Source of the DNA: Toxonevra muliebris
Taxonomy: Eukaryota > Arthropoda > Insecta > Diptera > Pallopteridae
DNA: 64,000 nt
Reading direction: 5' to 3'
NCBI GenBank assembly: GCA_963691655.1
Contig: CAVNUY010000006.1
Span: 248,001-312,000 of the forward strand
Part shown: in pieces, positions 12,887-63,907 of the stretch
How positions within the stretch are numbered: position 1 is the stretch's first letter
Layout: each line of letters opens with the position of its first letter
Notes under the pieces: model-generated
Told to the model about the DNA's origin: nothing
The model's input: the letters and a program-made list of their open reading frames with translations, nothing else
Database searches by the model: none
Program-made: the position numbers and the translations under genes

Positions 12887-13462
12887 TCATTCATTAACTA
12901 TATACTCTTTAAATTCAGCGTATGATGCATCAATTTCAATATTAGTAATAATTTTTTGAAAATTGCCAGGGGTAAGACCGTAGGTTATTTCATTTTTTGC
13001 AGATTGTAGACGCTTTTGAAGCGCTTCTTCCGTTACGGTATTACGTTTACGTAAGCGAATTTCTAAATCCTTTAGTGTTGGTAATAATCCACCATACATT
13101 AAAATTAGATTAAGATCAGTTTTCTTAATTTGTTCAACGCCTTGGGGCTCAATGTCTAAAATACAAACTTTTCCTGTATTTTGTATATCTTTTACTGCTG
13201 CTTTACTGGTTCCATAAATATTTCCACTGAAAGTTGCAGTTTCAATAAATTCATTATGTGAAACCTTCTCCGTCATTTCATCTTTTGATATAAAATAGTA
13301 ATGAACACCATTCTCTTCACCAAAACGTGGTTGTCTGGTGGTATGTAAGACACTAAAACCGAAAGTGTTTGGGAATTCCTCAAAGAGCTTCTTGAGCAAT
13401 GTGCTCTTTCCCTAACCAGAAGGTCCGCATAGGACGAGTGGTCGTGGGCCAATTTGTACCAT
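12887..13462 (-). pseudogene. guanylate kinase retrocopy with a stop in the P-loop
   Basis: Guanylate kinase transfers phosphate from ATP to GMP in the cytosol. The reading starts at the ATG at 13462 with MVQIGPRPLVLCGPSG, meets TAG at 13412-13414, then continues in the same frame GKSTLLKKLFEEF. The stop thus falls inside the GxxxxGK[ST] nucleotide-binding loop, one substitution from a sense codon. The rest (about 175 residues) has no further stop: HTTRQPR, GEENGVHYYF, FIETATFSGNIYGTSK, DIEPQGVEQIKKTD and TPGNF. Several conserved positions have changed (FSVLHTT where family members have Ser before His; PRFGE where they have Pro before Gly). It has no introns, and 150 bases past the stop codon lies an A-rich tract (12731-12751, T on the plus strand), as expected of a processed copy. 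A functional copy with readthrough is unlikely but not excluded. Confidence 0.88.
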
Positions 13463-27035: not shown

Positions 27036-27932
27036 TCAATATTTTGGGACACCTTTTTTGAGCTCTTTAAGCTTTTTTTTCACAATAACCCAATATCTCT
27101 CCACTGGTCTTAGCGCCGGATAATTTGAAGGATTGGACTCTCTTGGTACAAAAAATATGATATTACTTTGGTACCACTCCAGAGCTTTCTTGCCGTAGTG
27201 ACATGATGCTAAATCGGGCCAAAAATATGTGGACACATTGTGCTCTTTTATGAAAGGAAGAAGTCTATTTTTCAAACATTCTTTGATGTATATTTCGGTA
27301 TTTATAGAGCCCACTGTAACAAATGACTTGCTTCTTTTGCCGCAACTGCATATAGCTTGCCATAACAGAAATTTTTTAGGAAATTTTGTCTGATTTTGGA
27401 TTCGAAATTGTTCTTCGACATTTCCTCGAGCATCAGCAACATAAAAATTTTGACCCGGAAGCTGCTTAAAATCTGCCAGTATATACGTTTCGTCGTCCAT
27501 TATACAACATGAATATTTTTGTATGAAATTCGATTTTAATTTACGAGCCCTACTTTTGCCCTCTAAATTTTTTGCAGCATTCCTGTCTGGAACTTTTTGG
27601 ACTTTGTATGTTTGCAAACCTGCATTGGCTTTAACTTTTCGCACCAAATAGTCAGAGCACTGGGCTAACCGGGCAGCTTTTCTACCAGATGTGTTTGGAG
27701 ATCTTTTCAATATGCTTTCTATTTTCTTGGCTTTCCCAATATCATGTGGTCCTTGTTTTCTTCCCGAACCAGGTTTCTCATCCAAGGTCAAATTCTCCTG
27801 AAACTGTTTAATAACATTGGAAACAGTTTGACGACAGACCTTCAATTCGTTGGCCAATTTTTTGTAGGACCAATTTAGATTTTTTTGAAAATTTTTAATA
27901 ATTTTAAGACGTACTTCTTTTTCTTCACTCAT
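27036..27932 (-). pseudogene. DD37E Tc1/mariner transposase, frameshifted near the C-terminus
   Basis: A cut-and-paste transposase. From the ATG at 27932 the reading runs 298 codons. The N-terminal helix-turn-helix region has SYKKLANELKVCRQTVSNVI and a GSGRKQGP linker. The catalytic core has MDDETYILADFKQLPGQ, LLWQAICSCG, WPDLASCHYGKKALEWY and ALRPVERYW. Counting from the second aspartate to the glutamate gives 37 residues between them, hence DD37E. All three catalytic residues are present. After KKLKELKK a one-base shift gives a short wrong tail and a stop; in the neighbouring frame the expected VSQNIEDFKRCL continues. I did not find its terminal inverted repeats, so full-length mobility is unlikely. 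Confidence 0.85.
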
Positions 27933-28381
27933 TTTGATCAAACTCACAATAAATCAACATGTTTGTCATTAAAAATAACAACTGACAAATTTTTCAAAGA
28001 TTACTAGATCAAAGAAATTCTTAAATTTTACACCCAAAAAAAATTATTAGGTAAAACGTGTGTTAAGATTTTTTTCAATCTCACTCCTTATGTGCTATAA
28101 CTTCGTTAATATTTTGAATTATGGTATGAAATTTTTGCAGTATACTCTCAATTGTACTTAATAAAAGATACATAATAAAAGAAAATTAATTTTTTATACA
28201 AATCATTAGTGCATAATCGGAAGTGTGTACGTGAAGGTTTTTTTAAGAATTTCATTTAAGTTTATTAGATATATAAAATTGAATTTAAATGGATATTATA
28301 AAAGTAGGTATTTTCTTTGTTTTAAAATATAAAACATAAATGTGCGATAAAAATTTGAATCGAATGTGTGAATTTGAAATA
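27933..28381. other. flank of the DD37E copy, nothing recognised
   Basis: This probably includes the 5' end of the transposon, but no terminal inverted repeat could be paired with the other side. Otherwise AT-rich. Confidence 0.35.
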
Positions 28382-30367: not shown

Positions 30368-30447
30368 AAATTTTTATTATTTATTTATTTTTTTTGGATT
30401 GTGGCATGCCGCGCCGCAGTTAGCGTATCAAAAACAAAATCGTTAAG

Positions 30448-31812
30448 ATGTCATCAGAGGAAGACAATTTGGAACATGCTTCCAGCGAAGGGGAGCACGA
30501 TACAACAATGGTTGAAAAGGATATGATTGCCCAATTGCAGGAGCAGGTAAGAAAACTGCAAGAAACAATTGCGTCGGGAGCAATTGCCGATTCCTGCGTT
30601 AAGAACAACATCAGTCATACATTCGAAACAATATCTAATTGCGATTCGTTAACGCCAACTCTGCCGGCGAATACTTTACAAACGAATACGTCGATGCCTG
30701 CGTCAATTCTGCCAACGCATTATAATATTTGCACAACAACATTTGCATCGCCAATGCCAACTTACGCCACGTCAATTTTGCCGACGCACTTACAAACGAA
30801 GACGCCGATGCTATCGACGCCTCTGCCTGCGTCAATTCTGCCGACGCATTATTTTTCAAACTTGTCAGAATCAACGCCGACCTACGCCGCGTCGACTTTG
30901 CCAATGCAGACCTATGCCGTGTCTAATTTGGCAACGCCTTCATATGCACCGATGCCTTCGTGTATAACTAAACAAATGCCACCGCCGACAACTCTGTCAA
31001 TTAAATCTTCTACAGATTCGTTTGAATTTATAACTTCGCCAGCTCATGCAGCCCTAATATTATTCCATCCGCGCCTTTCATATATAATCAGCCTATTCGA
31101 TATGCCAGAATTCAGTGGTTTACCTGAGCAATGGCCAATGTTTGCCGTAGCCTATAGGGAAACAACAAACGCCTACGGTTACACAAACTTAGAAAATCTA
31201 TCACGATTGCAAAAGGCACTAAAAGGTGCTGCTAAAAACAAAGTTGAAGCTTTACTCATACACCCAGATAGCGTCAACATGATTATGCATACGTTAGAGT
31301 CTCACTATGGACGACCAACAATTTTAATACGGAGCCAGATAGCAAAGGTTCGAGCGTATCCAGCAATATCGGCTGGGAAAATTTGTGAAATAGTCGATTT
31401 CAGCACAATGGTTTCGAATTTAACCGCATTTTTAGAAAATGCTGGCGCCACACCTCCCTTATGTGATCCAACGCTTTTGGATGAATTGGTAAGCAAGTTT
31501 CCATTGTTTAAAAGAGAAGAGTGGGCAAGACACATTGGCACAAATATGATTCAGTATCCGAGCGTACGTGAGTTTAGCCAATGGCTGCAAACTGTTGCAG
31601 CGTATATTTCAATCGCCATTGAAGTGCTGCCTCCAAAGGCTGGAAGTATGCAAGCTTCGTCAAATATTGGTAAACATCAATTATCAAAGCCATCTTATAT
31701 CATTCTGAAGAGCAAACTAAAAAGCCGGAATGCGTTGTCTGCTCAGTGGAGCATAACTTGTATCAATGTAGCCAATTTCGCAGTTGCACAGTCGCTGATC
31801 GTTGGAATATAG
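30448..31812 (+). pseudogene. BEL/Pao gag, frameshifted at the 3' end
   Basis: Gag packages the element RNA. The reading opens at ATG 30448 (MSSEEDNLEHASSEGEHDTT) with an acidic segment and a short coiled coil (AQLQEQVRKLQETI), then a low-complexity Pro/Thr/Ser region of about 150 residues built on repeats of ASILPTHY and related words. The conserved BEL gag domain begins at about 31095: MPEFSGLPEQWPMFAVAYRE, NLSRLQKALKGAAKN and ESHYGRPTILIRSQI. The frame is lost at about 31715 just before the zinc knuckles. Confidence 0.88.
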
Positions 31813-32114
31813 TAAAAAAGAACAAACTCTGCTTTTGCTGTCTTCATCCCGGCCATATTGTGATGAAATGCGGAAAACGACGTGAATGTGGAGTGTCTTC
31901 TTGCGCAAAGTTCCATAATCGTCTATTGCACGAAATTACAAAAAATCGAAAATTAGTTGAAGATGGTAGCTCTGTAAAACAGCAAACGTCAAACGTTAGA
32001 GTCGAGTGCGCATCTATTAATAGTCTAAAAAATAATAACGAGAATGCCACTGTCACCACAATTGTAAATGAGTTCAATAAGAAAACATTATTAAAGTTTT
32101 TGCCTGTCGTTTGA
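31718..32114 (+). pseudogene. BEL/Pao gag zinc knuckles (shifted frame)
   Basis: In the next frame the reading is KPECVVCSVEHNLYQCSQF, then KLCFCCLHPGHIVMKC, a C-x2-C-x4-H-x4-C knuckle, then CGVSSCAKFHNRLLH, a second Cys/His cluster. The order and spacing match BEL/Pao gag. The reading ends at a TGA at 32112-32114, before the protease. Confidence 0.85.
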
Positions 32115-32141
32115 AAAGGATCCAAAGTATGTTGTGAAGTA

Positions 32142-33863
32142 ATGGCTTTCATTGATGAAGGGTCAAAAATTTCTTTAATTGAAGAACAAGCTGCAAAGAC
32201 AGTCGGGCTGAATGGTGCCGCCGGTATGCTGTCGCTGCGATGGATTGGTGGTAAAACAACTAACGAAATGTCTCAACGCCTGAATATTGAAATTGCTGGA
32301 GTAAATAGCAGGACAAATACGTTTCAAATGAGAAATGTACGCACAACCAAAAATTTAGAATTGCCCGCCCAAAGTTTGTTTTTACAACAATTTAAGAAAA
32401 AATACTCGGTATTGAAAGATTTACCAATAAACGATTATAATCATGCAATACCAAAAATGTTAATTGGTATGCCGCATATAAATCTGGTGCGCCCATTGAA
32501 CGTATTAAATTTAGATGAAAGTTTTTCAGTGCATGAAACCAATTTGGGCTATACAATATTTGGCTCCAATGAAGATAGCACAGACGCCGTTGTCTGTTTT
32601 GTTGAATGTGAACAAAATACTCTCAGAGATTTACAAAATCAAGTCTTAGAATATTTTACAATTGAAAATTTCGGCACAAAACTACTACAGCTGCTTGTTT
32701 CAGAAGCCGATATACGAGCTGAAAGAATATTTCTTGAAACCACCAAAAAGGTTGGAAATAATTACGAAATAGGTCTTCTGTGGAAAGACGATTTAATACA
32801 TTTCCAAGAAAGTTATACAATGGCACTAAAACGCCTAGAAACAATTGAAAAAAAGATGTCGAGAGATGAAGAGTTTTCTACGTGGTACAAATCTAAGATA
32901 GAAGAGTACGTGACAAAAGGATACGCCAGAAAACTTTCGTCGCATTTAGCTTCACATTTGGAAGCTCACACGTGGTACCTGCCGCATTTTGCGGTTTGTA
33001 ATATAAATAAAGGAAATAAGCTGCGACTTGTTTTCGACGCTGCCGCATTAGTTAATAACTTATCACTTAATACAAGATTAATGAAGGGTCCTGCATCGTA
33101 TCAACCAAAACCTTTATTGTCAATTTTATTCAAATTTCGTCAAGCACAATTTGGAGTGTACGTAGACATCCGTGAGATGTTCCATCGCATAAATATTAGA
33201 GAAGAAGATCGAACTGCACAAAGATTTTTGTGGCGGAATGGAGATTTGTCAAAACCACCAGATACTTACGTAATGATTTTCGGCTCAGCTTGCTCGCCAT
33301 GCTCGGCGCAATATGTCAAAAATATTAACGCTGAATTGCATAAAGAAGAACATTCTCGAGCAGTGAAAGCAATTACCGATCGTCATTACGTCGATAGTTT
33401 TGATACCGTCGAAGAAGCAATAACGATTACAAAAGAAGTTGTAGAAATACATAAACGGGCTGGTTTCGAGTTAAGAGGCTTCGTTTCCAATTCAACCGAA
33501 TTTCATCAAGCAATAACAAACAATTCATCAGCGCCACCTGAGTCGATCTTGGCAAGTATGTATCATGGAGAATCAACAGAAAAGATTTTGGGTATGTATT
33601 GGCACCCGTCTGATGACCAATTCTGTTTTATTTTAAAATTTGGAAGAGTACCGAAATTAGTTTTAAATGGTAGTCGACGGTCCACTAAAAGCGAAGTGTT
33701 AAGTTTGACCATGTCTATTTTTGATCGGTATGGTTTTTTGGCTAACGTTGTTATACAGTCAAAAATATTACTTCAAGAGTTGTGGAGAGCAAATGTAGAT
33801 TGGAACAGTCCAATTCCGGAAAAAATTTACAATAAATGGTATAAATGGAGCTTCACCGGGTAG
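32142..33863 (+). pseudogene. BEL/Pao protease and reverse transcriptase, active-site box damaged
   Basis: The first part has AFIDEGSKISLIEE, where DEGS is the catalytic segment of the BEL aspartic protease. The connecting region includes LIGMPHINLV and NLGYTIFGS. The reverse transcriptase has KLRLVFDAAA, VYVDIREMFHRINI with the first catalytic aspartate, and QRFLWRNGD. The YxDD box reads HYVDSFDTVEEA: the second aspartate is not there and the segment is shorter than in relatives, consistent with a small in-frame deletion. The thumb FDRYGFLANVVIQSKIL follows. No stop interrupts the 573-codon reading, so loss of function rests on this box. Confidence 0.9.
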
Positions 33864-34351
33864 AAAATTTAAAGGTGGATAGATGTTATCACAGACAATT
33901 TACAAATGCATCTACAAAAATTGAATTACACATATTCGTTGATGCGAGTGAACTCGCATTTGCTGCCGTCGGATACTGGCGTATAAACTGTTCGGATAAT
34001 ATAGCCATATCGTTCGCTGCCGCCAAGTCAAGGTGTAGTCCATTAAAGGCTCTTTCCGTGCCACGGCTAGAGCTTCAAGCCGCTGTACTGGGTGTGAAAT
34101 TGAAAGATGCGATTGTAAGCAGTCATGATGTAAAGCCGCATAATATAATATTTTGGTCAGACTCTAAAACAGCTATTAGCTGGATCAGATCTGACAGTCG
34201 CTGTTACAAGCCGTTCGTTGCGCATAGAATTACGGAATTTCTCGATTCATCTGAAATTGGACAATGGAGGTGGGTTCCTGGCTCCCAGAACCCAGCTGAC
34301 GATGCAACAAGGCCTCAGAAAAAACAAGAAATTTCTTCGAATTCACGTTAG
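33845..34351 (+). pseudogene. BEL/Pao RNase H domain
   Basis: RNase H degrades the RNA strand during reverse transcription. Visible motifs are LHIFVDASELAFAAVGYW (first catalytic aspartate), PRLELQAAVLGVKL (catalytic glutamate), IIFWSDSKTAISWI (second aspartate) and WRWVPGSQNPADDATR (third). The domain appears complete, but it is in a different frame from the reverse transcriptase and overlaps it by 19 bases. Confidence 0.88.
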
Positions 34352-37314: not shown

Positions 37315-38615
37315 AAGCGCGGTTCACGCAAAATTGGCACGCAGGAAGTTGCTGTATCTTTTTAACCAGAACACTCAGAATAACAAATAATGCATTAAAT
37401 GATAAGTTTAATATTGTATTTTAATACTGTAATATTAAAAGATTTAAATTACTTTGTTGTGCAAAAAGTTCCGGGTATTCCTTTTAATGGACCCAATCAA
37501 CCTTTGAACATCCGCTCTGGATACTTTTGCGGCTATTTGGTTCCATTTTAGTAACACTGAATTCACATTTTTGACAATACCTGCATTTTTCTTCAACTTA
37601 TATTTTGTAATAGCCCAGCATTTTTCGATCGGTCGAAGCTGGGGGCAATTGGGTGGATTCATATATTTGGGCACTACATCTACTTTATTTGTCTGATACC
37701 AATCCATGGTTTTGTTAGAGTAGTGGCAACTGGCTAAATCAGGCCAAAACTTTACTGGCGAATGGTGGTGACGAACAAATGGCAATAGTCGTTTCGAAAG
37801 GCACTCTTTGATGTAAATATCAGATGTCATAGAAGAGGATGTCACAAATACCCTGGATTTGAGACCACAGCTGCAAATAGCCTGCCACACCATTGCTTTC
37901 TTTGCAAATTTATCCATTTTAATGTACTTGAATTTTGAGGGTACATTACCACGATTCGTTGCCATATAAAATTTTTGACCTGGAATCTGTTTAAGATCAA
38001 ATTTTACGTATGATTTGTCATCCACAATAATGCATCCGTTGAATTTGGTCAAAACATTATTATAAAGAAGACGAGCACGTTTTTTGGCCAGCAAATTCTG
38101 TTTGTCTGTTCTATTTGGATATTTTATAGCTCGATAGCACTTTAGTTCAGCTTTTATGCCTATTCGTCTAGCAGTACTTTTGCTGGTATTGAATTTTTTG
38201 GCACGATCGCTGTCCGATAGTCCGGGATTGCTTTTGATGGACCTCAAGATCTCTGCCTTTAATTTTATGTTGGTGGTTCCCCTTTTGTTCACAACTTTTT
38301 TAGCTCTTTCAACACTAAGAGTTTCTTTATATCGTTTTATAACTCTACATACCGTTCTTTTGGAGATATTTAACACTTTAGCAATCTTTGAACCAGACCA
38401 CGACGAATTTTTAATAAATTTGTTTACAATCAATTTTCTATTTGCAGCTTCCATTGTGCACACAATCACCAACTTGCGAACAATTAATATGAAAAATTTA
38501 TCAACTAACGGTAACGGTATTGTAAACAAATCCCAGTAAAAAATTTGTTGTTCTTATGACTAGGGGCGACGTGGTGACCACAACAAAGCGTGCCAATTTG
38601 GCGTGAACCGCGCTT
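37315..38615 (-). mobile_element. DD37E Tc1/mariner transposon, apparently complete
   Basis: The terminal inverted repeats are 28 bp with one mismatch (AAGCGCGGTTCACGC, then one variable base, then AAATTGGCACGC), flanked by TA on both sides (37313-37314 and 38616-38617). Length is 1301 bp, normal for the superfamily. It holds one uninterrupted transposase ORF in the minus orientation. Unlike every other element in the window it shows no visible defect, so it may be active or recently so. Related DD37E elements are best known from mosquitoes; the occurrence here alongside two decayed relatives points to repeated waves. Confidence 0.93.
37444..38454 (-). CDS. DD37E transposase, 336 residues, intact
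   Basis: The transposase binds the terminal repeats, cuts and reinserts the element at TA. The start is the ATG at 38454 (MEAANRKLIVNKFIKN); no ATG precedes it in the frame. Residues about 8-60 form a helix-turn-helix with AKVLNISKRTVCRVIKRY; a second one follows with RAKKFNTSKSTARRIG. The catalytic residues are the first Asp in CIIVDDKSYVKFDLKQIPGQ, the second Asp in WPDLASCHYSNKTMDWY and the Glu in QLRPIEKCW, with 37 residues between the last two. The C-terminal tail of about 65 residues is basic, ending FLHNKVI. No frameshift or stop. Its relative at 27036-27932 shares the order of all motifs but is clearly a different family member. Confidence 0.93.
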   Translation of the reverse strand: MEAANRKLIVNKFIKNSSWSGSKIAKVLNISKRTVCRVIKRYKETLSVERAKKVVNKRGTTNIKLKAEILRSIKSNPGLSDSDRAKKFNTSKSTARRIGIKAELKCYRAIKYPNRTDKQNLLAKKRARLLYNNVLTKFNGCIIVDDKSYVKFDLKQIPGQKFYMATNRGNVPSKFKYIKMDKFAKKAMVWQAICSCGLKSRVFVTSSSMTSDIYIKECLSKRLLPFVRHHHSPVKFWPDLASCHYSNKTMDWYQTNKVDVVPKYMNPPNCPQLRPIEKCWAITKYKLKKNAGIVKNVNSVLLKWNQIAAKVSRADVQRLIGSIKRNTRNFLHNKVI

Positions 38616-49712: not shown

Positions 49713-51180
49713 ATGGAGTCCCTCAACTCCGCCATTGCAACTCAGCAAAAAACACTACGTCATTTAAAACGCAAGCAGACCATGTTTAATGCAAAACCAA
49801 GGGAAAGCAAAACTAGAGCTTGCTCGATGATGTCGAAAGTAATTACACTTCTTTCCGAGATGGGCATGAGAAGATAGATGAAATTGTTAGTTCTAGCTCC
49901 ATTGCTGAAGTAGATGTGCCATATCTCAAGGAAGATGTCTTCTACACTTGCTATGATCTTTATATCGCGCTTAAATCTTCTTTAATTGATTTGCAATATG
50001 AATTTAATGCACCACTCTCACCAGTCGTTCATGCTAGCACGCTTGCAACAACCAACAGCCGAAATGAATCTTTTAGCGCCTGTGCGCGACTCCCTAAAAT
50101 TAATTTGCCCAACTTCTCCGGTGAATATCTCGAATGGATTCCATACCGGGATATGTTCTTGTCACTTGTTCACAATAACCACGCTCTCTCAATGTTCAGA
50201 AGTACTTCTACTTAAAGAGTTCTTGCGCTGGAGCACCGTTAGACATCGTGAATGAGTATCCAGCAGCAGACACCAATTATGAACTAGCATGGGGTGCATT
50301 AGAAAAACGATTCCATAATCACCGAAAATTAGTCGAGCAAATTCTTAAACGTCTCTTTGCTATCCCAAACATAAATGGATCGTGTGAAAGCGTAAAGCTA
50401 CTGCTAGATACCACTCGTAATTGCTTAGCATTGATCAAAAGTCTCAACATTGATATTACAACTTGGGACGCTATTCTTGTGTTCTTAACTACACGAAAGC
50501 TTGACAAGCAGACAATAAAAGAATGGGAGCAATCTTTAAACGCCAGCACTAATATCCCATCCATGACAAACATGATAATGTTTTTGGAAACAACGTTTAG
50601 AACACTTGAGATGGTCGAAGAACCAAAATATATGATGAGCAATAAGCCACAAAGTCATGATTCTAAATCATTTAAAACAGCAACGTCTAAACAACCGTTT
50701 CGTCGCAATATCTACTCGCACACTACTCTACTGTTCAGGACAGTAACTGCCCTTGCTGCCAAATTCTCAGCGCTTTCATCTGCTGCTAAGCTAGCATTTG
50801 TAAATCAGAACAAGGTTTGCAGAAACTGCCTTTATCCTGGACATAACCACAATGAATGCAAACTAAGCACTCGCTGCAAAATCTGCCAACAGCTGCATCA
50901 TACCATTATTCACAACGAGTTCTCCTCTGACTCCATCCAACGTCAACACTCACCAGCTAAAACTCTCTCTGGCTTTACAAATGAACCTATCACAACCACA
51001 GCTCTACCACACACCTTCAACGGTGGTCATGCAAGTGCAAACATTTCAACTATGTCGAGTCCTCAAATTATACTTGCGACAGCGAAGGTAATTGCGAAAA
51101 CTAGCAAAGGTACATTTACGCTGAAAGCTCTCGTTGACCAAGGCGCTCAGGCATCTTTTATTACCGAAGAGTTTGCCTAA
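49713..51180 (+). pseudogene. BEL/Pao gag, zinc knuckles and start of protease (broken)
   Basis: The ATG at 49713 opens MESLNSAIATQQKTLRHLKR; a shift leads to LLDDVESNYTSFRDGHEKID. The conserved BEL gag region has RLPKINLPNFSGEYLEWIPY, then after a stop and shift NYELAWGALEKRFHNHRKLV. The zinc region reads KVCRNCLYPGHNHNECKL (C-x2-C-x4-H-x4-C) and CKICQQLHHTIIH. From about 51090 the reading ATAKVIAKT and ALVDQGAQASFITEEFA is the protease, with DQGA at the catalytic position, and stops at 51178-51180. Confidence 0.88.
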
Positions 51181-51181
51181 C

Positions 51182-53393
51182 TACTAAATATATCTAAATT
51201 AACTACTCACGTAACGGTTAAAGGAGTTGGAGATAAACAATCAGTCAATGTAAGAAAATATGTGCCACTCAAACTTTATTCGCATTATGTTCCAAATTTT
51301 ACTTTGAAATGCAATGCTTTAATTCTGCCTACTCTTACTGCATATAACCTTATGCCAATAAATATTAACCTTTTACCTAATCTATCACAACTCCATCTCG
51401 CTGACCCACAATTTATTCAACCAAGCAGAATTGATCTAATTCTTGGCAGTAATGTCTATGGAAACCTACCTACCATACCTGAGTATGAGAAAATATGAAA
51501 CAGGACTGCTTCTTCAAAATACATCGTTTGGTTGGATGGTTTCTGGACCTACTTGCAAAAATTCATTTGCTACTGACGTTAGCATCAACATTTGCTCTCT
51601 TGAAAATCAACTACGCCTTTTCTGGGAACAAGAAGAGCTATACGAAGAGAAACTAAAACTACCTGAAGAAACAGCTTGCGAAACTTTGTTCTCAGAAACC
51701 CACTTTCGCGATAAGGATGGTAGGTACACTGTCCAATTACCATTTAAACAATTGATTTTACACAACAAACTGCCTACTTTTCAACAAACGGATTATAACG
51801 CTCTTAAACGACTCAAACAACTGGAAATAACATTTGCCAAAAGACCTCTATTTGCTGAAATGTACAAGAAATTTATGGAGGAATACGAATCTCTAAATCA
51901 CATGCAAAATATAGGTGTTTATCCAAGTGATTTGCCGCCTAATTGTTATTTTTTGCCGCAACATGGAGTGCTCAGAGAAAATAGTAAGACAACTAAGCTC
52001 CGTGTTGTATTCGATGGAGGCAACCGTAAGCCACCTCAAAATTCACTTAATGCCTACAATCATCACACGCTGGCGCCGCTTTTCAATTGGATTTACAGCA
52101 GATCTTGAAAAGATGTTTAGGCAAATTAATGTCTGCGAAGAACACCAGAAATTACAATGCATCCTCTGGCGAGAATGCCAAAGTAACAACATTTGTATTT
52201 GCAAGTTGCGCACGGTCACGTATAGTACCACCTCTGCTCCCTATTTGTCTATTCGTGTTCTACAACAACTTGCTACGGACGGGAAATATATTTATCCTCT
52301 AGCTAGTAAAGTCTAGAGTACAGATACCTATGTCGACGATGTGATTTCAGGCGCAGACTCTGTCGAAGAAGCAATACAACTACAACAACAACTGTGCCAA
52401 CTTTTAGCGGCCGGCGGTTTCAATTTGAGAAAGTGGTCTTCTAATTCGATCAATGTACTGCAAACCATTCCTGAAGAAAATCGTGAAACTGCAGACTTAT
52501 TTCAATTGCAAGATCAAAATTACGTGAAAGCTTTGGGGCTCACCTTGGATACCATTAATAATTCATTTTCTTTTAAACTTAATTTTACTTTTGCACCTCA
52601 TTTAACAAAAAGTAGCCTTCTCTCGGATGCCGCAAAGCTTTTCGACCCACTAGGGTGGCTCTCACCGATCACGATCGTGCCGAAGATTATGTTCCAAAAA
52701 TTATGGACAGCTGGGCTAGATTGGAAAGACCCACTTCCAGCTGATATCAATCAAGAATGGCAGAGCTACCGAGACTCATTAAAAGATATCGAACAGATTA
52801 AGATCTCCAGGTGGTTTGGAGGCAAACGTACAACCAAGGCAGAGCTGCATGGATTTAGTGACGCCTCTCAGTTGGCATATGCTGCCGCAGTATACCTACG
52901 AATCACAACGGAAATTGGGGAGGTCGTTGTAAACTTAGTGCAGTCAAAAACGAAAGTAGCGCCTTTGAAAACAGTCACGATTCCTAGACTGGAACTTTGT
53001 GCAGCTGCTCTACTAGCAAAACTTACAGCTACAATTAAAAATTCCTTGGACGTGAGCATCGAAAGCATAACCTATTGGACTGATAGCACCACTGTTCTCA
53101 GCTGGATAAATAACCACTCTTCTAAATGGACCGTTTATGTCGCAAATCGCGTTGCACAAATTCAGCGTCTCACTGAACCTAATGAGTGGAGATATATATC
53201 AATAAATGACAATCCAGCGGATTGCGCTTCAAGAGATACCACGCACTATGGTGGCAAGGACCACCATGGCTCCAGAAAGCATACGCATATTGGCCAACAA
53301 TATCTAAAACAGTTGAAACTGATCTCGAAGTTAGACGAATTACAATCCACTCAATTAAAACACAGCCTTTACAGTATCCTGAACTTTCGTTAA
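51182..53393 (+). pseudogene. BEL/Pao protease end, reverse transcriptase and RNase H (broken)
   Basis: Protease end: DLILGSNVYG. Connector: NTSFGWMVSGP, an element-typical phrase. RT: KLRVVFDGGNRK, then a frame change, then DLEKMFRQINVCEEHQKLQC, the first catalytic aspartate block, and after a TAG at 52315 TYVDDVISGADSVEEAIQ with an intact YVDD box. Thumb: AKLFDPLGWLSPITIVPKIM. RNase H: LHGFSDASQLAYAAAVYLR, PRLELCAAALLAKL, ITYWTDSTTVLSWI and NDNPADCASR carry the four catalytic positions. Thus the key residues survive but the frame is broken at least three times. Confidence 0.9.
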
Positions 53394-53399
53394 GATTTT

Positions 53400-54851
53400 C
53401 GACCTTTACAACGATGCGGCGTGTGACAGCATATGTTTTAAGATTTCACCACAATTTACAATGTGGTCTTCGGACAGGGAAGTGGGATACCTAAAGACTT
53501 ATGAACTCAAGCGCGCAGAACTGTTACTGATTAAGTTAACACAGGGAGTATGTTTCGAAAAAGATATCAAATGCTTAAAAATTAATAAATTATTGCCACC
53601 GCAAAGCAAAATACTACAACTCAGCCCCTTCCTGGATAATGATGGTATTGTTAGAGTTGGAGGCCGTATTGTGAATGCAGAAGTTTCGTATCAAACTATC
53701 CAATATTATTATCAAAACACAACCCACTTTCTATTCTTATATTTACTTGTGTGCGCAAACACATCATGGCGGTTTACAACTCATGCAAACCTATGTCAGG
53801 CTCCGATACTTGATTTTATCCTCTCGCAATTTAGCTAAATCTGTGCAACGAAGATGTGCAATTTGTTATAAATACAATGCAAAAACATGCCAACAAATCA
53901 TGGGCAATCTGCCCGCGGTACGCTTGCAACCAACAAGAGCATTTAAACATAGCGGGCTAGACTACGCTGGTCCCATAATATCAAAACAATCTACATTGAG
54001 AAAGGCCGCTGTTTCAAAAAGTTACATATGTTTATTTATTTGCATGTGTACAAAAGCGATCCATCTGGAAGTTGTTCGTCGCCAGACGAGGAACCTGCAC
54101 CGACCTGTACTCCGACTGCGATACTACATTCATAGGCGCAAACAAGGAGTTACAGGTACTCTTCAATCGATGTAAAACATCGCTGCCGGAGCATTTGGTT
54201 GAAACACTGGCAAACGAAGAACAACTTGGCATTTCATTCCTCCAGCTTCGCCTCATTTTGGAGGATTATGGGAAGCCGGAGTAAAGTCTACAAAACACCA
54301 TCTGAAATGTATAATGCAGGATCGTATTCTCACCTATGAGGAGTTACCTACACTGCTAGCACAAATTGAAAGCTGCTTGAACTCCCGTCCTCTTTCACCA
54401 CTATCAACGGATCCATCGGATCACATTGCGCTTACCCCAGCGCATTTTCTTATTGGCGAACCAACTTCATGCCTGCCCGCCGAGAACCTACTAGGTGCGA
54501 ATATTGATCGTTTGAGTCGCTGGAAAATTGTTGAGACTTAAACAAAGCTTTTGGAAAAGATGGTCGAGTGAGTATATGTGTAGGTTACAAGCACGTCCTA
54601 AATGGAAAACCCCTCAACGAAACCCCAAAGTAGGCGATGTAGTCCTTCTGTTACATGAACGTAGCGCACCAGGAAAATGGCCGTTGGCAAGAATCGAAGA
54701 GCTTCATCTAGGGTCCGACGGATTAATACGTGTTGTTACATTGCTTTGCAATGGCAAAACATTGAAGCGACCGATAGCTAAAATCTGCTTGCTTCCAACT
54801 AACATAACTAACGAGACTGACATCCAAGACCAACCTGCACAACACCCGTAA
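53400..54851 (+). pseudogene. BEL/Pao integrase (broken, part of core missing)
   Basis: Readable parts in changing frames: DGIVRVGGRIVNAEVSYQ, the HHGG and QRRCAICYKYNAKTCQ zinc region, FKHSGLDYAGPI with the first catalytic Asp, CTKAIHLEVV directly followed by a shifted RRGTCTDLYSDCDTTFIGAN with the second Asp (a short segment between is lost), FGGLWEAGVKSTKHHLK with the catalytic Glu, LTPAHFLIGEP, and the C-terminal LKQSFWKRWSSEYMCRLQAR and NPKVGDVVLLLHERSAPGKW. All three catalytic residues exist, but no frame spans them. Confidence 0.87.
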
Positions 54852-60081: not shown

Positions 60082-61400
60082 TTGCATCATAATCCGATTG
60101 CTTTTGATATTGAGTTTTATGACTTTCCATATATTTTCAATGATAATGTTAAAATTAACTTCAATTATAGATTATGCGATTTCAATAATATTAATCGGTT
60201 AATTTTAGACATTTGTTGGGCTGATTTGTCTGCTTGTTATATGACTTTCAAACTTAAGTTACGTGATATTTGTATGAATAATATTCCGAGATTTCCTAGA
60301 AAGATTCATAAATTACCGTGGTATACTAAAGAACTAAAAAAGCTAAAGAATTTGAGAAATAAGAACTATAAAAATTTCAAAAGTACCAATAATTCTTATT
60401 ACTGCTCTAGGTATCAATATTACATATAAATTGGAATTCAGTATTCTGAATAATTATCTTTACCATAATTACATCCAACAGTTTGAAATCAATATCAATA
60501 CCAATCCGAAGGCCTTTTTGAGGTACGTTAAATCCAGAAAATCTGCTTTTCCATCCACAGTTTTCCTAAATGAGAAATCTGCTTGTTCTTCTGAGAATGT
60601 GGCCAATCTCTTTGCAGAATTCTTTAAATCGAATCTTGATGGTGCAACTGAGATAGATGATAGTTTCGTTTAATTGACTTTGGGTTCCTTGTGTTAACAG
60701 ATGATGATATTATAAATGGTATTCTGAATCTTAAGTTATCAACTCATACTGATTTCGACGGCCTTTCAGCTCTATTCTTTAAAAACTGCACATCATCTAT
60801 CATCCAACCATTGAGACTCCTCTCAAATCGTTGTCCTCTGGTGTTTTTATTGATGATTGGAAAATCACTGCTATCTCTCCTATTTTTAAAAATGCTAATA
60901 AGAATGATATCTCTAACTATAGGCCTATTTCTAAGTTAACTACAGTCTCTATACTCTTTGAAAGCATAGTAAAAAATAAGATTTATTTTGCGGTTAAAAA
61001 CATAATATGCTCAAATCAACATAGTTTTGTCTCGGGTCGTTCAACAATTACTAATCTTTCAGTTTTTACCGAAGACTGTATTGTTGCGTTTCAAAATGGT
61101 TTCCAAATTGATTCCATTTACACCGATTTTTCTAAAGCGTTTGACAAGGTCTCTCATAATTTATTGATTTTCAAATTGGCAAAATTGGGTTTCCACTCTG
61201 TCTTTTTGAAGTGGATTAGAAGTTACTTAACAACTAGGCTTTCGTTTGTTGTTATCGACAATGTTGAATCAATTCTCTTTAGGGCCACCTCTGGTGTTCC
61301 TCAAGGTAGTATTTTAGGTCCATTACTGTTCGTCCTATTTATTAATGATATTAGTAACTGTTTTTCTAATTCAAAATTTTTATTGTATTGTAACGCAACG
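60082..61400 (+). pseudogene. LINE 2 linker and reverse transcriptase (cut at the active site)
   Basis: The linker has LPWYTKELKKLKNLRNKNYK and FLRYVKSRKSAFPSTVFLNE. The RT begins NGILNLKLSTHTDFDGLSAL, then with frame changes WKITAISPIFKNANKNDISN, YRPISKLTTVSILFESIVKN, QHSFVSGRSTITNL, the first catalytic block IYTDFSKAFDKVSHNLLIFK, and SGVPQGSILGPLLFVLFIND. The next conserved box should be YADD; here the reading is LLYCNATFF and the element ends. Catalysis is therefore lost. Confidence 0.85.
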
Positions 61401-61590
61401 TTCTTTCACAGGCAGGGGTAGAGCTCAGCGGGCTCCAGTGGTTCGTTGGCTACAGAATTTTTGATTGCAGGGGAACCCTTACTTTTTATTGAGACTCATT
61501 TCTTTTAATTTAATAATGTTTAATTCACTTTTTAGTTCTAATGTTTACAATAACGATAATATAAACTAATGAAACTATTCTTTCGTATTC
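61401..61590. other. junction between LINE 2 and the satellite block
   Basis: A GC-richer patch (GGGGTAGAGCTCAGCGGGCT) directly follows the LINE break, then AT-rich sequence to the start of the 46-bp array. No feature is supported. Confidence 0.4.
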
Positions 61591-61964
61591 GAGCTTGCTG
61601 TGCGTGGACGACGATGGATGATACGCCTGATGAGGCGAACTTGCTGTGCGTGGACGACGATGGATGATACGCCTGATAGGGCGAACTTGCTGTACGTGAA
61701 CGACGATGGATGATCCGCCTGATGAGGCGAACTTGCTGTGCGTGGACGACGATGGATGATACGCCTGATGAGGCGAACTTGCTGTGAGTGGACGACGATG
61801 GATGATACGCCTGATAGGGCCAACTTGCTGTGCGTGGACGACGATGGATGATACGCCTGATGAGGCGAACTTGCTGTGCGTGGACGACGATGGATGATAC
61901 GCCTGATAGGGCGAACTTGCTGTGAGTGGACGACGATGGATGATACGCCTGATAGGGCGAAAAA
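61591..61964. repeat. 46-bp satellite, eight copies
   Basis: The unit begins CTTGCTGTGCGTGGACGACG, then ATGGATGATACGCCTGATGA and GGCGAA. Eight near-identical copies in a row. Each contains a short hairpin CGCCT-GATG-AGGCG; the variant copies with GATA-GGGCG keep pairing through a T-G pair. Long open frames on the minus strand (HRRPRTASSP-type repeats) are just the satellite translated. Confidence 0.95.
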
Positions 61965-62175: not shown

Positions 62176-62662
62176 AAGCTTCCAATAGTCCATCTGGGGT
62201 CATATGGTAGGGACTATACCATCCAAGTAGCACCACACAGTCTGGTTAAAGCGTTTAGTACTGTATTGTGGTGGTTAGGCCAACAATACACTACTAAGCG
62301 CTCGGTTACTCGCTCCTAAGGAATGCCCTGCTACTTTTCGTAAGTTTCCAACCGGGCGTCTGGGGTCATATAGTAGGGACTATACCATCCAAGTGGCACC
62401 ACACGCTCTGGTTAAAACGTTTAATACTGTATGGTGGGGGTTAAGCCAAAGATACACTACTAAGCGCTTGGTTACTTGTTTCTGCGAAATACTACACTAA
62501 TATCATAAGCTTCCAACCGGACGTCTGGGGTCATTTGGTAGGCACTATAGCATCCAAGTGGCACCACACAGTCTGGTTGAGGCGTTTAGTACTGTATTGT
62601 GGTGGTTAAGCCAACAATACAATTACCAAATGCTTGGTAGCTTATCCCTAAGCTTATTTATA
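62176..62662. repeat. 166-bp tandem repeat, three copies
   Basis: The unit begins AGCTTCCAAC, has CTGGGGTCATATGGTAGGGA, CCAAGTGGCACCACAC and TTAGTACTGTATTGTGGTGG. Copies start at about 62176, 62342 and 62507. Within the unit GTATTGT and ACAATAC can pair across about 13 bases. It is non-coding; the copies differ by roughly ten percent. Confidence 0.9.
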
Positions 62663-62716: not shown

Positions 62717-62728
62717 AAAATGTTTGTT
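62717..62728. repeat. 12-bp direct repeat flanking the hammerhead array, left
   Basis: AAAATGTTTGTT here and again at 63896-63907 on the other side of the array. It is the likely target-site duplication of the whole block; its last three bases also match the inverted unit, so the exact edge is ambiguous by three bases. Confidence 0.75.
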
Positions 62729-62810
62729 ATTTGAAGTTATATATAAACAGGTTAATGAACAAATGTAGTCATCACAACAACAATGTATATAGAGACGGGC
62801 AAATCAGACG
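62726..62810 (-). repeat. inverted partial unit of the hammerhead array
   Basis: This is the inverted copy of the unit segment from CGTCTGATTTGCCCGTC to CTTCAAATAAC (compare 63260-63344). Read on the minus strand it starts at CGTC-TGATTT, four bases before the predicted ribozyme cleavage point. With the first direct unit it can form a 52-bp hairpin stem. Confidence 0.9.
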
Positions 62811-63219
62811 TTGTGATGACTACATTTGTTCATTAACCTGTTTATATATAACTTCAAATAACGAAATTGACGTGAACTTAAGTCATGACTTGGAAAATTA
62901 ACCTCTAGATTTAATTTTCATAGTCTCCTAAAAAACTATCATGAACTGATCGAATGGGGACCGTTCAGAAAAAATGACACCTAGAATCATTTTCTCATAA
63001 ACACACACACTCTCCCATGTACTAGACTTTCAAATAACGAACTGTTATGCAGACTAGCTACAATGGGAAAAAACAACAACATAAGTGTATAGAACGGTAG
63101 TGGTAGTTTCTTTCAATATCTATTCAGTGAAGATATTTGGAATCAAATCCGTAATTCTGGGTTATGATTTCAAATATTAGTAGCTTTTATAGGATATTGA
63201 AAGATTAAGAACTATCACT

Positions 63220-63269
63220 AAGATCACTGATGAGGAATTGTGGCGGATTCCGAAACGGCCGTCTGATTT
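63220..63269 (+). ncRNA. type I hammerhead ribozyme, copy 1
   Basis: In order: stem I strand AAGATCA (63220-63226); core CTGATGA (63227-63233); stem II GGAAT (63234-63238), loop TGTGGCGG, ATTCC (63247-63251); core GAAA (63252-63255); palindromic stem III segment, ACGGCCGT counted from the last A of GAAA (63255-63262); cleavage triplet GTC ending at 63263; stem I strand TGATTT (63264-63269), which pairs with AAGATCA over 6 bp with one G-T pair. All core positions of the hammerhead fit, and the GTC triplet is the favoured one. Stem III has no loop of its own, so efficient cleavage would need two ribozymes pairing through the palindrome, as known for other short-stem-III hammerheads. Self-cleavage would yield unit-length RNA. 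Confidence 0.85.
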
Positions 63270-63703
63270 GCCCGTCTCTATATACATTGTTGTTGTGATG
63301 ACTACATTTGTTCATTAACCTGTTTATATATAACTTCAAATAACGAAATTGACGTGAACTTAAGTCATGACTTTGAAAATTAACCTCTAGATTTAATTTT
63401 CATAGTCTCCTAAAAAACTATCTTGAACTGATCGAATGGGGACCGTTCAGAAAAAATGACACCTAGAATCATTTTCTCACAAACACACACACTCTCCCAT
63501 GTACTAGACTTTCAAATAACGAACTGTTATGCAGACTAGCTACAGTGGGAAAAAACAACAACATAAGTGTATAGAACGGTAGTGGTAGTTTCTTTCAATA
63601 TCTCTATTCAGTGAAGATATTTGGAATCAAATCCGTAATTCTGGGTTATGATTTCAAATATTAGTAGCTTATATAGGATATTGAAAGATTAAGAACTATC
63701 ACT

Positions 63704-63753
63704 AAGATCACTGATGAGGAATTGTGGCGGATTGCGAAACGGCCGTCTGATTT
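63704..63753 (+). ncRNA. type I hammerhead ribozyme, copy 2
   Basis: Same layout one unit later: AAGATCA at 63704-63710, CTGATGA at 63711-63717, stem II GGAAT with ATTGC (63731-63735), GAAA at 63736-63739, CGGCCG, cleavage after TC at 63747, TGATTT at 63748-63753. One base change in stem II (C to G) makes a mismatch at its second pair; the closing G-C pair and all core bases are kept, so activity may be reduced but not necessarily lost. Confidence 0.82.
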
Positions 63754-63895
63754 GCCCATCTCTATATACATTGTTGTTGTGATGACTACATTTGTTCATT
63801 AACCTGTTTATATATAACTTCAAATAACGAAATTGACATGAACTTAAGTCATGACTTTGAAAATTAGATTTAATTTTCATAGTCTCCTAAAAAAC

Positions 63896-63907
63896 AAAAT
63901 GTTTGTT
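63896..63907. repeat. 12-bp direct repeat flanking the hammerhead array, right
   Basis: AAAATGTTTGTT, matching 62717-62728. The partial third unit ends at the base before it. Confidence 0.75.

Follow-up and report, generated by a model that had tools for sequence, protein, structure and literature searches.

How retrozymes, which are without genes, find their way back into DNA is the question that this locus raises, and the ends of the fly insertions are so well defined that the starting points of reverse transcription can be read from them. Animal retrozymes are defined in passages of PMC7229834 (Cervera and de la Pena, 2020). Passages of PMC7761336 name Penelope-like elements (PLEs) and Terminons as likely candidates for completing retrozyme mobilisation, and PLEs are proposed there as mobilisers because both they and retrozymes carry type I hammerheads and co-occur in the genomes analysed there. 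The window, which is the whole 64,000-nucleotide stretch of Toxonevra muliebris DNA analysed here, contained a tandem block at 62729-63895, and we compared its anatomy, its genomic copies and their ends with those of the PLEs of the same fly.

An exact 12-bp direct repeat (AAAATGTTTGTT) flanked the block on both sides (Table 1). The sequence-only reading had described a single insertion with these limits and this repeat, and both proved to be exact. Its account of 483-bp tandem units was right for two direct units and a partial third unit, but the leftmost 81 bp were found to be inverted and to lie outside the direct tandem. The outer end of this inverted piece coincided with the first of two reverse transcription start sites (RT start sites 1 and 2, described below), and its inner end lay 3-4 nt past the hammerhead cleavage site; the joint of the inverted and direct parts was located at 62806-62810, at the same 3-4 nt past the cut. 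The units were 97-99% identical to one another, the partial third unit carried a 7-bp internal deletion, and the GC content of the whole block was 0.33, that of its units 0.34. Within its 1,086 bp of direct repeat, the window copy showed seven substitutions confined to a single unit, one more common to two of the three units and two single-unit deletions, a variant load that was among the highest of the 40 loci described below. The block had been called coding-free, and no ORF of at least 120 aa was indeed present between 62729 and 63895. A reading of the block as an LTR structure was rejected, as no RT ORF was found in it and its ends were internal to the unit.

Table 1. Coordinates of the insertion and its parts in the window.
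Feature	Position	Strand	Remark
Target-site duplication, left copy, 12 bp	62717..62728	.	identical to 63896-63907
Inverted 5' piece, 81 bp	62729..62809	-	reverse complement of 63261-63341
Unit 1, 482 bp	62810..63291	+	
Hairpin, 39 nt, located between the two RT start sites	62887..62925	+	
Small GC-rich hairpin GAATGG GGA CCGTTC, just 3' of RT start site 2	62952..62966	+	
Type I hammerhead copy 1	63221..63269	+	
Unit 2, 484 bp	63292..63775	+	
Hammerhead copy 2, core intact, G.G mismatch in stem II	63705..63753	+	predicted cleavage after 63747
Partial third unit	63776..63895	+	ends at unit position 156 past the cut (RT start site 2)
Target-site duplication, right copy, 12 bp	63896..63907	.	identical to 62717-62728

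Two other tandems were located directly upstream of the block, one of 166 bp in three copies with 77-84% identity (62176-62655) and one of 46 bp in about eight copies (61590-61961). Elsewhere in the window, remnants resembling BEL/Pao elements, Tc1/mariner-like transposases and LINE RT were present (30424-34351, 49817-54175 and 60783-61421; 27036-27953 and 37444-38553 on the minus strand), which were recognised by Pfam matches for part of them and by a reading of the ORF list for the rest. A guanylate kinase exon was located at 12887-13411 on the minus strand. It matched an unnamed protein at 87% and, of the named proteins, that of Eurosta solidaginis at 75%, followed by those of further tephritids, blow flies and house flies, which places the host among the schizophoran flies, probably close to Tephritidae.

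In each unit, stem I was 6 bp long and the remainder read CTGATGA - stem II - GAAA - C GGCC G - TC. In copy 1, stem I was formed by 63221-63226 and 63264-63269, the core occupied 63227-63233, stem II 63234-63251 and GAAA 63252-63255; the palindromic stem III strand ACGGCCGT was located at 63255-63262, and cleavage is predicted after 63263. The claim that both units carry a hammerhead held for the core, which was intact in each, and for the 6-bp stem I, whereas stem II of unit 2 read GCGAAAC instead of CCGAAAC and therefore contained a G.G mismatch. A descriptor that asked for a CTGATGA or CTGANGA core, stems I and II of 5 and 4 bp, GAAA and NUH revealed a single motif when both strands of the 64 kb were searched, at 63227, since the mismatch caused the unit 2 hammerhead to fail it. 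The same descriptor found no motif on either strand of 150 dinucleotide shuffles, and a chance hammerhead was rejected. The mismatched hammerhead of unit 2 was one of the 92 motif copies judged in the 40 loci.

The sequence-only reading had counted the lack of a covariance-model hit as a result that would speak against the hammerhead, and this was the result obtained: Rfam cmscan of the block reported no hammerhead, whether the gathering score was applied or hits up to E=10 were admitted. However, the Rfam search was equally blank for one copy of each of three PLE families (L075 of family A, L094 of family B and L074 of family C), whose hammerhead cores were read by eye, and for the retrozyme copy L041. 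The Rfam models thus seem to miss this hammerhead class, and the negative result for the block is weak evidence. Candidates of other kinds in the Rfam output, including miRNAs and snoRNAs, were rejected because none reached its own gathering score; the strongest of these rows were miRNA models on the inverted-repeat hairpin at approximately 62721-62866.

Folded as a hammerhead, the monomer was weak (-5.0 kcal/mol, versus -11.2 kcal/mol for its best fold), and the dimer in hammerhead pairing was near, not below, its best co-fold (-28.9 versus -29.3 kcal/mol). Passages of PMC7229834 report that amphibian hammerheads with a short stem III cleave better as dimers. The palindromic stem III (ACGGCCGU) of the fly element suggests that two hammerheads may pair and cut as a dimer.

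As evident from the genome-wide search, the window copy was one of many. The core pattern CTGATGAG-N7..23-CGAAACNNNNGTC had 1,400 forward and 1,429 reverse matches, 2,829 together, in the 491.4-Mb assembly of 96 contigs, and the same pattern read backwards, which served as a control, had none on either strand of that assembly. Of 1,583 first-look candidates, 40 were scored; these were the loci with near-full-length unit matches (L031-L070, with the window's own locus as L070), a choice by which short copies were under-represented. The commonest genomic unit was 486 bp long, and the arrays spanned 1.06-4.84 units. The cut-to-cut spacing was 484-488 bp in 55 of the 57 full units, with 467 and 492 bp in the other two, and this near-constant spacing argues against end-to-end jumping between separate monomers. 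Five loci contained no variant at all, including L043 (4.0 units) and L045 (3.8 units), each with nearly 2 kb of array. Treated as a circle, the unit folded at -130.6 kcal/mol, compared with -88.1 +/- 5.2 kcal/mol for shuffled sequences (z -8.1; 0 of 100 as low). A search of phage records with the unit gave no match. Judged from its sequence, the element is a type I retrozyme in a fly, and a recently active one.

The hammerhead had been expected to keep its core in the genomic copies, and 89 of 92 motif copies in the 40 loci were identical over 55 nt; the 92 were those of 97 cut sites whose last ten bases fit AAC[G/A]GCCGTC and that had enough preceding sequence, a filter that favours identity. 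Because the family is young, with 23 of the 57 full units identical, copy identity was dropped as proof of selection. Paired changes in stem II between subfamilies are, as far as aligned sequences can tell, better evidence of conservation than identity within the family. Among 23 distinct rows, stem II pair 18-27 was UA in 14, CG in 8 and UG in 1, and pair 19-26 was CG, UG or UA and was unpaired in one row. Stem II cells changed on both sides numbered 10, versus 4.3 in shuffles (as high in 0 of 500), counts that are inflated by the kinship of the rows, and 95.0% of the cells were paired, versus 92.9% in shuffles. The number of pairs with a both-side change showed no excess (2 versus 1.8 in shuffles). 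When the structure was slid by one column (+1), 10 both-side cells were also obtained, yet pairing was found in only 34% of the cells.

A second subfamily (L095-L102, with its hammerhead also in L114) showed 70-75% identity to the main one around the hammerhead. Its stem II was GGAACC/GGTTCC, most sampled copies had the palindromic stem III ACGATCGT, and the copies look single-unit; L095-L114 had been hand-picked for divergent hammerheads from 100 listed places of the core-pattern search. The core was kept in both retrozyme subfamilies, and so was a palindrome on the stem III strand. Of 22 distinct hammerheads, 10 had ACGGCCGT as this strand, 6 had ACGATCGT and the other six each had a version found once. 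In five older copies, the broken pairs of the whole rod fold, compared with random expectation, were fewer in L104, L105 and L107, approximately equal in L106 and more numerous in L109.

The ends of the insertions were then read in unit numbering (486 bp), which begins at the first base past the cleavage site. The direct 3' ends fell at 78-88 (site 1) in 11 of the 40 loci and at 155-169 (site 2) in 27, and the two off-site ends were at 47 and 141. Because short copies were under-represented, the test was redone on the 22 loci of at least 1.9 units, whose 3' ends are beyond length selection by the search, and 21 of these ends were within the same two intervals. The direct 5' ends of the 40 loci were scattered. 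Run-off from cleaved RNA ends was considered as their source and was unsupported, as three of the 40 lay within 8 nt of the cut when 1.4 were expected. In 10 of the 40 loci, head-to-head inverted pieces adjoined the direct part, and the outer ends of eight of the nine readable ones were at 80-85 or 155-159 (the exception, L054, was at 68; that of L063 lay in Ns and was excluded). Where a fragment was separated from the main part by over 20 bp (L048, L052, L053 and L055), it was left uncounted; the one in L055 was inverted, with its outer end at site 2. Four of the 10 inverted pieces ended within 8 nt of the cut (binomial p 0.0003), and three of these four ran beyond it, so the inverted pieces are not simple run-off from cleaved ends. 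Their ends near the cut possibly mark an RT that stopped at the folded ribozyme.

Target duplications were assessed at 38 of these loci (L053 and L063 have N beside the element and were omitted). Duplications of at least 10 nt were found in 15 loci, versus 3 of 1406 mismatched flank pairs, and those of at least 12 nt in 11 loci, versus 0 of 1406. The one-step insertion of a concatemer, as had been proposed from the window copy, gained support from these duplications, from arrays of 1.06-4.84 units with locus-specific variants and from the genomic motif count. The same results bear on the view that the block is ordinary satellite DNA, spread by recombination or DNA circles, with a hammerhead that is a coincidence or a relic. 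Its tandem organisation and its GC content of approximately 34% would suit a satellite, but the copies were dispersed insertions of 1-5 units with target duplications and fixed 3' ends, no motif arose by chance in the shuffles and the stem II changes were paired; we therefore give this view hardly any credence.

Mobilisation by another RT, from a LINE or a BEL/Pao element, has in its favour the remnants of both within the window itself. However, no poly(A) tail or LTR was present at the retrozyme ends that were read, and the combination of two internal start sites with head-to-head pieces is a PLE trait in passages of PMC11167929 and PMC3846280 that was also seen in PLE family A of this fly, which makes such a source very unlikely. 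In the lizard PLE, as described in part of PMC11167929, reverse transcription starts from two internal sites and both target strands are extended in vitro. PLE inserts in passages of PMC3846280 have an inverted pLTR, a tail and a target duplication, and non-PLE sequence can be carried between pLTRs.

To compare these ends with the PLEs of the same genome, we used the RT fragment of one copy (L072), in which a GIY-YIG domain was located downstream of the RT. This fragment had 148 genome matches, at identities of approximately 85% (family A), 65% (family B), 43% (family C) and other levels. Matches to the Pfam GIY-YIG model were limited to two genomic places, of which L072 was one, and the assignment of families A-C to PLEs therefore rests on RT and anatomy. 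Family A (L075) had a minimal hammerhead, with the cut placed after position 1139 of the reverse complement. The 801-bp region from hammerhead to ORF, used as a genome query, gave 46 rows, and 5 of the 40 direct rows reached the query end and were excluded. The remaining 35 copies, which ended inside the query, did so 78-88 nt past the cut in 16, 114-124 nt past it in 17 and elsewhere in 2. Five of six inverted pieces, which lay up to 143 bp from the direct row, started at the same two sites; for families B and C, the ends were seen in few copies. Site 1 of the retrozyme was located at the same distance from the cut as in family A, and site 2 approximately 40 nt further. As a 39-nt hairpin lies between the two retrozyme sites, this excess of approximately 40 nt may be looped out.

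Additionally, the PLE stem III strands were palindromic by reading (ACGCGT, ACGT and ATAT in families A, B and C). All three families showed a small hairpin, xCGG-AGRGCACR-CCGx, within approximately 10 nt downstream of the last end (seen in L073, L074, L075 and L094), with a closing pair of GC, UA and AU in the three families, which may be a binding site of the PLE protein. The retrozyme hairpin, approximately 10 nt downstream of site 2, was different, and its loop was not the conserved Penelope loop. The sequence-only reading had suspected a Penelope tie from the kind of hammerhead, and this tie is now backed by a common insertion anatomy, beyond co-occurrence.

Such likeness would also be expected if the unit were the pseudo-LTR of an autonomous PLE, an ORF-less tandem deletion derivative and not an independent retrozyme lineage. 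Its parts follow the order of family A, i.e. hammerhead, approximately 80 nt, start site 1, start site 2 and small hairpin, and the inverted pieces of the two are of the same kind. We nevertheless consider this origin unlikely, as no unit was linked to an ORF in the PLE stretches compared (L073-L094, part of the 148 RT matches), the unit hammerhead was unlike those of families A, B and C, and the 57 full units, of approximately 486 bp, were joined head to tail with no space for an ORF. Between the retrozyme and the PLE stretches L073-L076 and L089-L094, no sequence aligned beyond chance (best E 0.089). Stretches L077-L088 contained two unit matches (L078:1616-1943 and L087:2054-2549). Both were found downstream of the PLE 3' ends, by approximately 1.2-1.4 kb, and appear to be independent insertions. 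The search for the unit and a linked Penelope-type RT, as it had been proposed, thus succeeded in finding the unit dispersed through the genome but revealed no linked autonomous parent in the stretches compared. Of 12 stretches of 2.6 kb taken from downstream of PLE copies, two contained retrozyme insertions, which is more than expected from the overall motif density. A target preference common to PLEs and the retrozyme is possible.

The distribution of variants within arrays indicated what had served as template. At loci with at least two units covering a place, and with the A-run at unit positions 286-290 excluded, variants relative to the commonest unit were shared by all units in 21 cells, confined to one unit in 46 and intermediate in 3. 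For six recurrent variants, 17 locus-variant cells were fixed and 3 were mixed, versus approximately 44 mixed cells if units were shuffled among loci; these six markers were our choice among variants recurring in at least two loci, and a seventh, 438 T>C, was left out of the set. The recurrent variants were mostly fixed within arrays, and thus each array looks copied from one monomer. Most single-unit variants would then be later than array formation. A circle is the simplest source of such a template, the alternative being a linear RNA transcribed from a uniform array that had just formed.

The alternative, in which a linear multimeric array transcript is the template and the intermediate of transposition arises without the hammerhead, draws on several observations. 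In passages of PMC11167929, the lizard PLE PAc inserts RNA despite hammerhead mutations, the substrate used in vitro is chiefly unprocessed RNA and insertion in vitro proceeds without need for hammerhead cleavage. In the fly arrays, right-hand cDNAs cross 1-5 uncut sites, 438 T>C was mixed in both of its loci (1/2 and 1/5 units), and transcripts of arrays that were uniform from birth would give uniform arrays too. However, the rarity of in-between variants is simpler with one monomer per array, and the core and palindromic stem III were kept in both subfamilies; a linear template is accordingly the less expected one, and we hold it to be improbable.

Taken together, it is probable that the element is a non-autonomous, non-coding retrozyme of the animal type, whose RNA is self-cleaved and circularised (or uniformly multimeric) and is copied by a Penelope-type RT on both target strands, with starts at fixed internal sites. 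A genomic array would be transcribed as a multimer that cuts itself at each hammerhead, presumably with two hammerheads acting as a dimer, and the 486-nt monomer would be closed into a circle, as in other animal retrozymes. A Penelope-type RT/endonuclease would then make a staggered cut, giving the duplication of approximately 12 nt that was observed at the insertions, and reverse transcription would begin from both cut target strands at one of two places past the cleavage site (78-88 or 155-169 nt), where the ends were found. The right-hand primer would circle 1-5 units before a random stop, the left-hand primer would give the short inverted piece, and the two cDNAs would be joined and fixed as one insertion. 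On balance, we favour the view that the insertion ends are direct genomic evidence for Penelope-type enzymes mobilising retrozymes in trans, with an RNA circle in which a two-site start module of its own follows a dimer-forming hammerhead, an arrangement like that of this fly's PLEs; both cut target strands would prime on the circle. The blank Rfam result, the weak monomer fold and the two off-site 3' ends are counterpoints to this explanation. The question is thereby narrowed to whether retrozyme RNA is copied by a PLE enzyme from +80 and +160, on both strands.

To place the element among known systems, we compared it with four of them. The animal (non-LTR) retrozymes of Cervera and de la Pena, as described in passages of PMC7229834, have a type I hammerhead in each unit, occur as dimers to multimers, are non-coding and of low GC content, and show target duplications of more than 4 bp, a strongly self-paired unit and PLEs in the same genome; the fly element likewise showed a type I hammerhead, dispersed short non-coding tandems, target duplications of more than 4 bp, low GC and self-pairing. 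The differences were the unit size, as 150-450 bp is reported in those passages and the commonest fly unit of 486 bp lies outside this range, which we take as descriptive and not as defining, and the host, as the same passages name insects in general and no fly. Additionally, circular, self-paired RNA has been described for other animal retrozymes and is predicted for the fly element.

A satellite of Dolichopoda cave crickets, pDo500, is similar in its insect host, its unit of approximately 500 bp with one 49-nt hammerhead and its compensatory stem II changes; in the passages of PMC2837043, it is described as satellite DNA, neither insertion ends nor a helper are mentioned, and its double-hammerhead model has stem III inside one strand. 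The HDV-like hammerheads of dipteran genomes (passages of PMC7936874) share the fly hosts but have a type III topology and are kin of HDV-like RNAs; those passages make no mention of tandem non-LTR retrozymes in flies. A limited literature search, of sources represented in part, found no report of such a retrozyme in flies, which does not imply its absence from print.

PLEs with minimal hammerheads (passages of PMC11167929 and PMC3846280) have two internal RT start sites (the 'tail'), an inverted 5'-side piece, a short target duplication, tandem copies and a hammerhead upstream of the start sites, and those of the same genome also have the palindromic stem III strand. The insertion anatomy of the fly element, with two fixed 3' ends, an inverted 5' piece and a short target duplication, was of this kind, and its likeness to family A covers ends and inverted pieces. 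In contrast to PLEs, the fly element was without an RT/GIY-YIG ORF, had a CTGATGA core with a 6-bp stem I, and had its site 2 approximately 40 nt further than family A. By these predicted structures, the element is a fly retrozyme with PLE-type insertion ends, which joins the traits of retrozymes and PLEs in one element.
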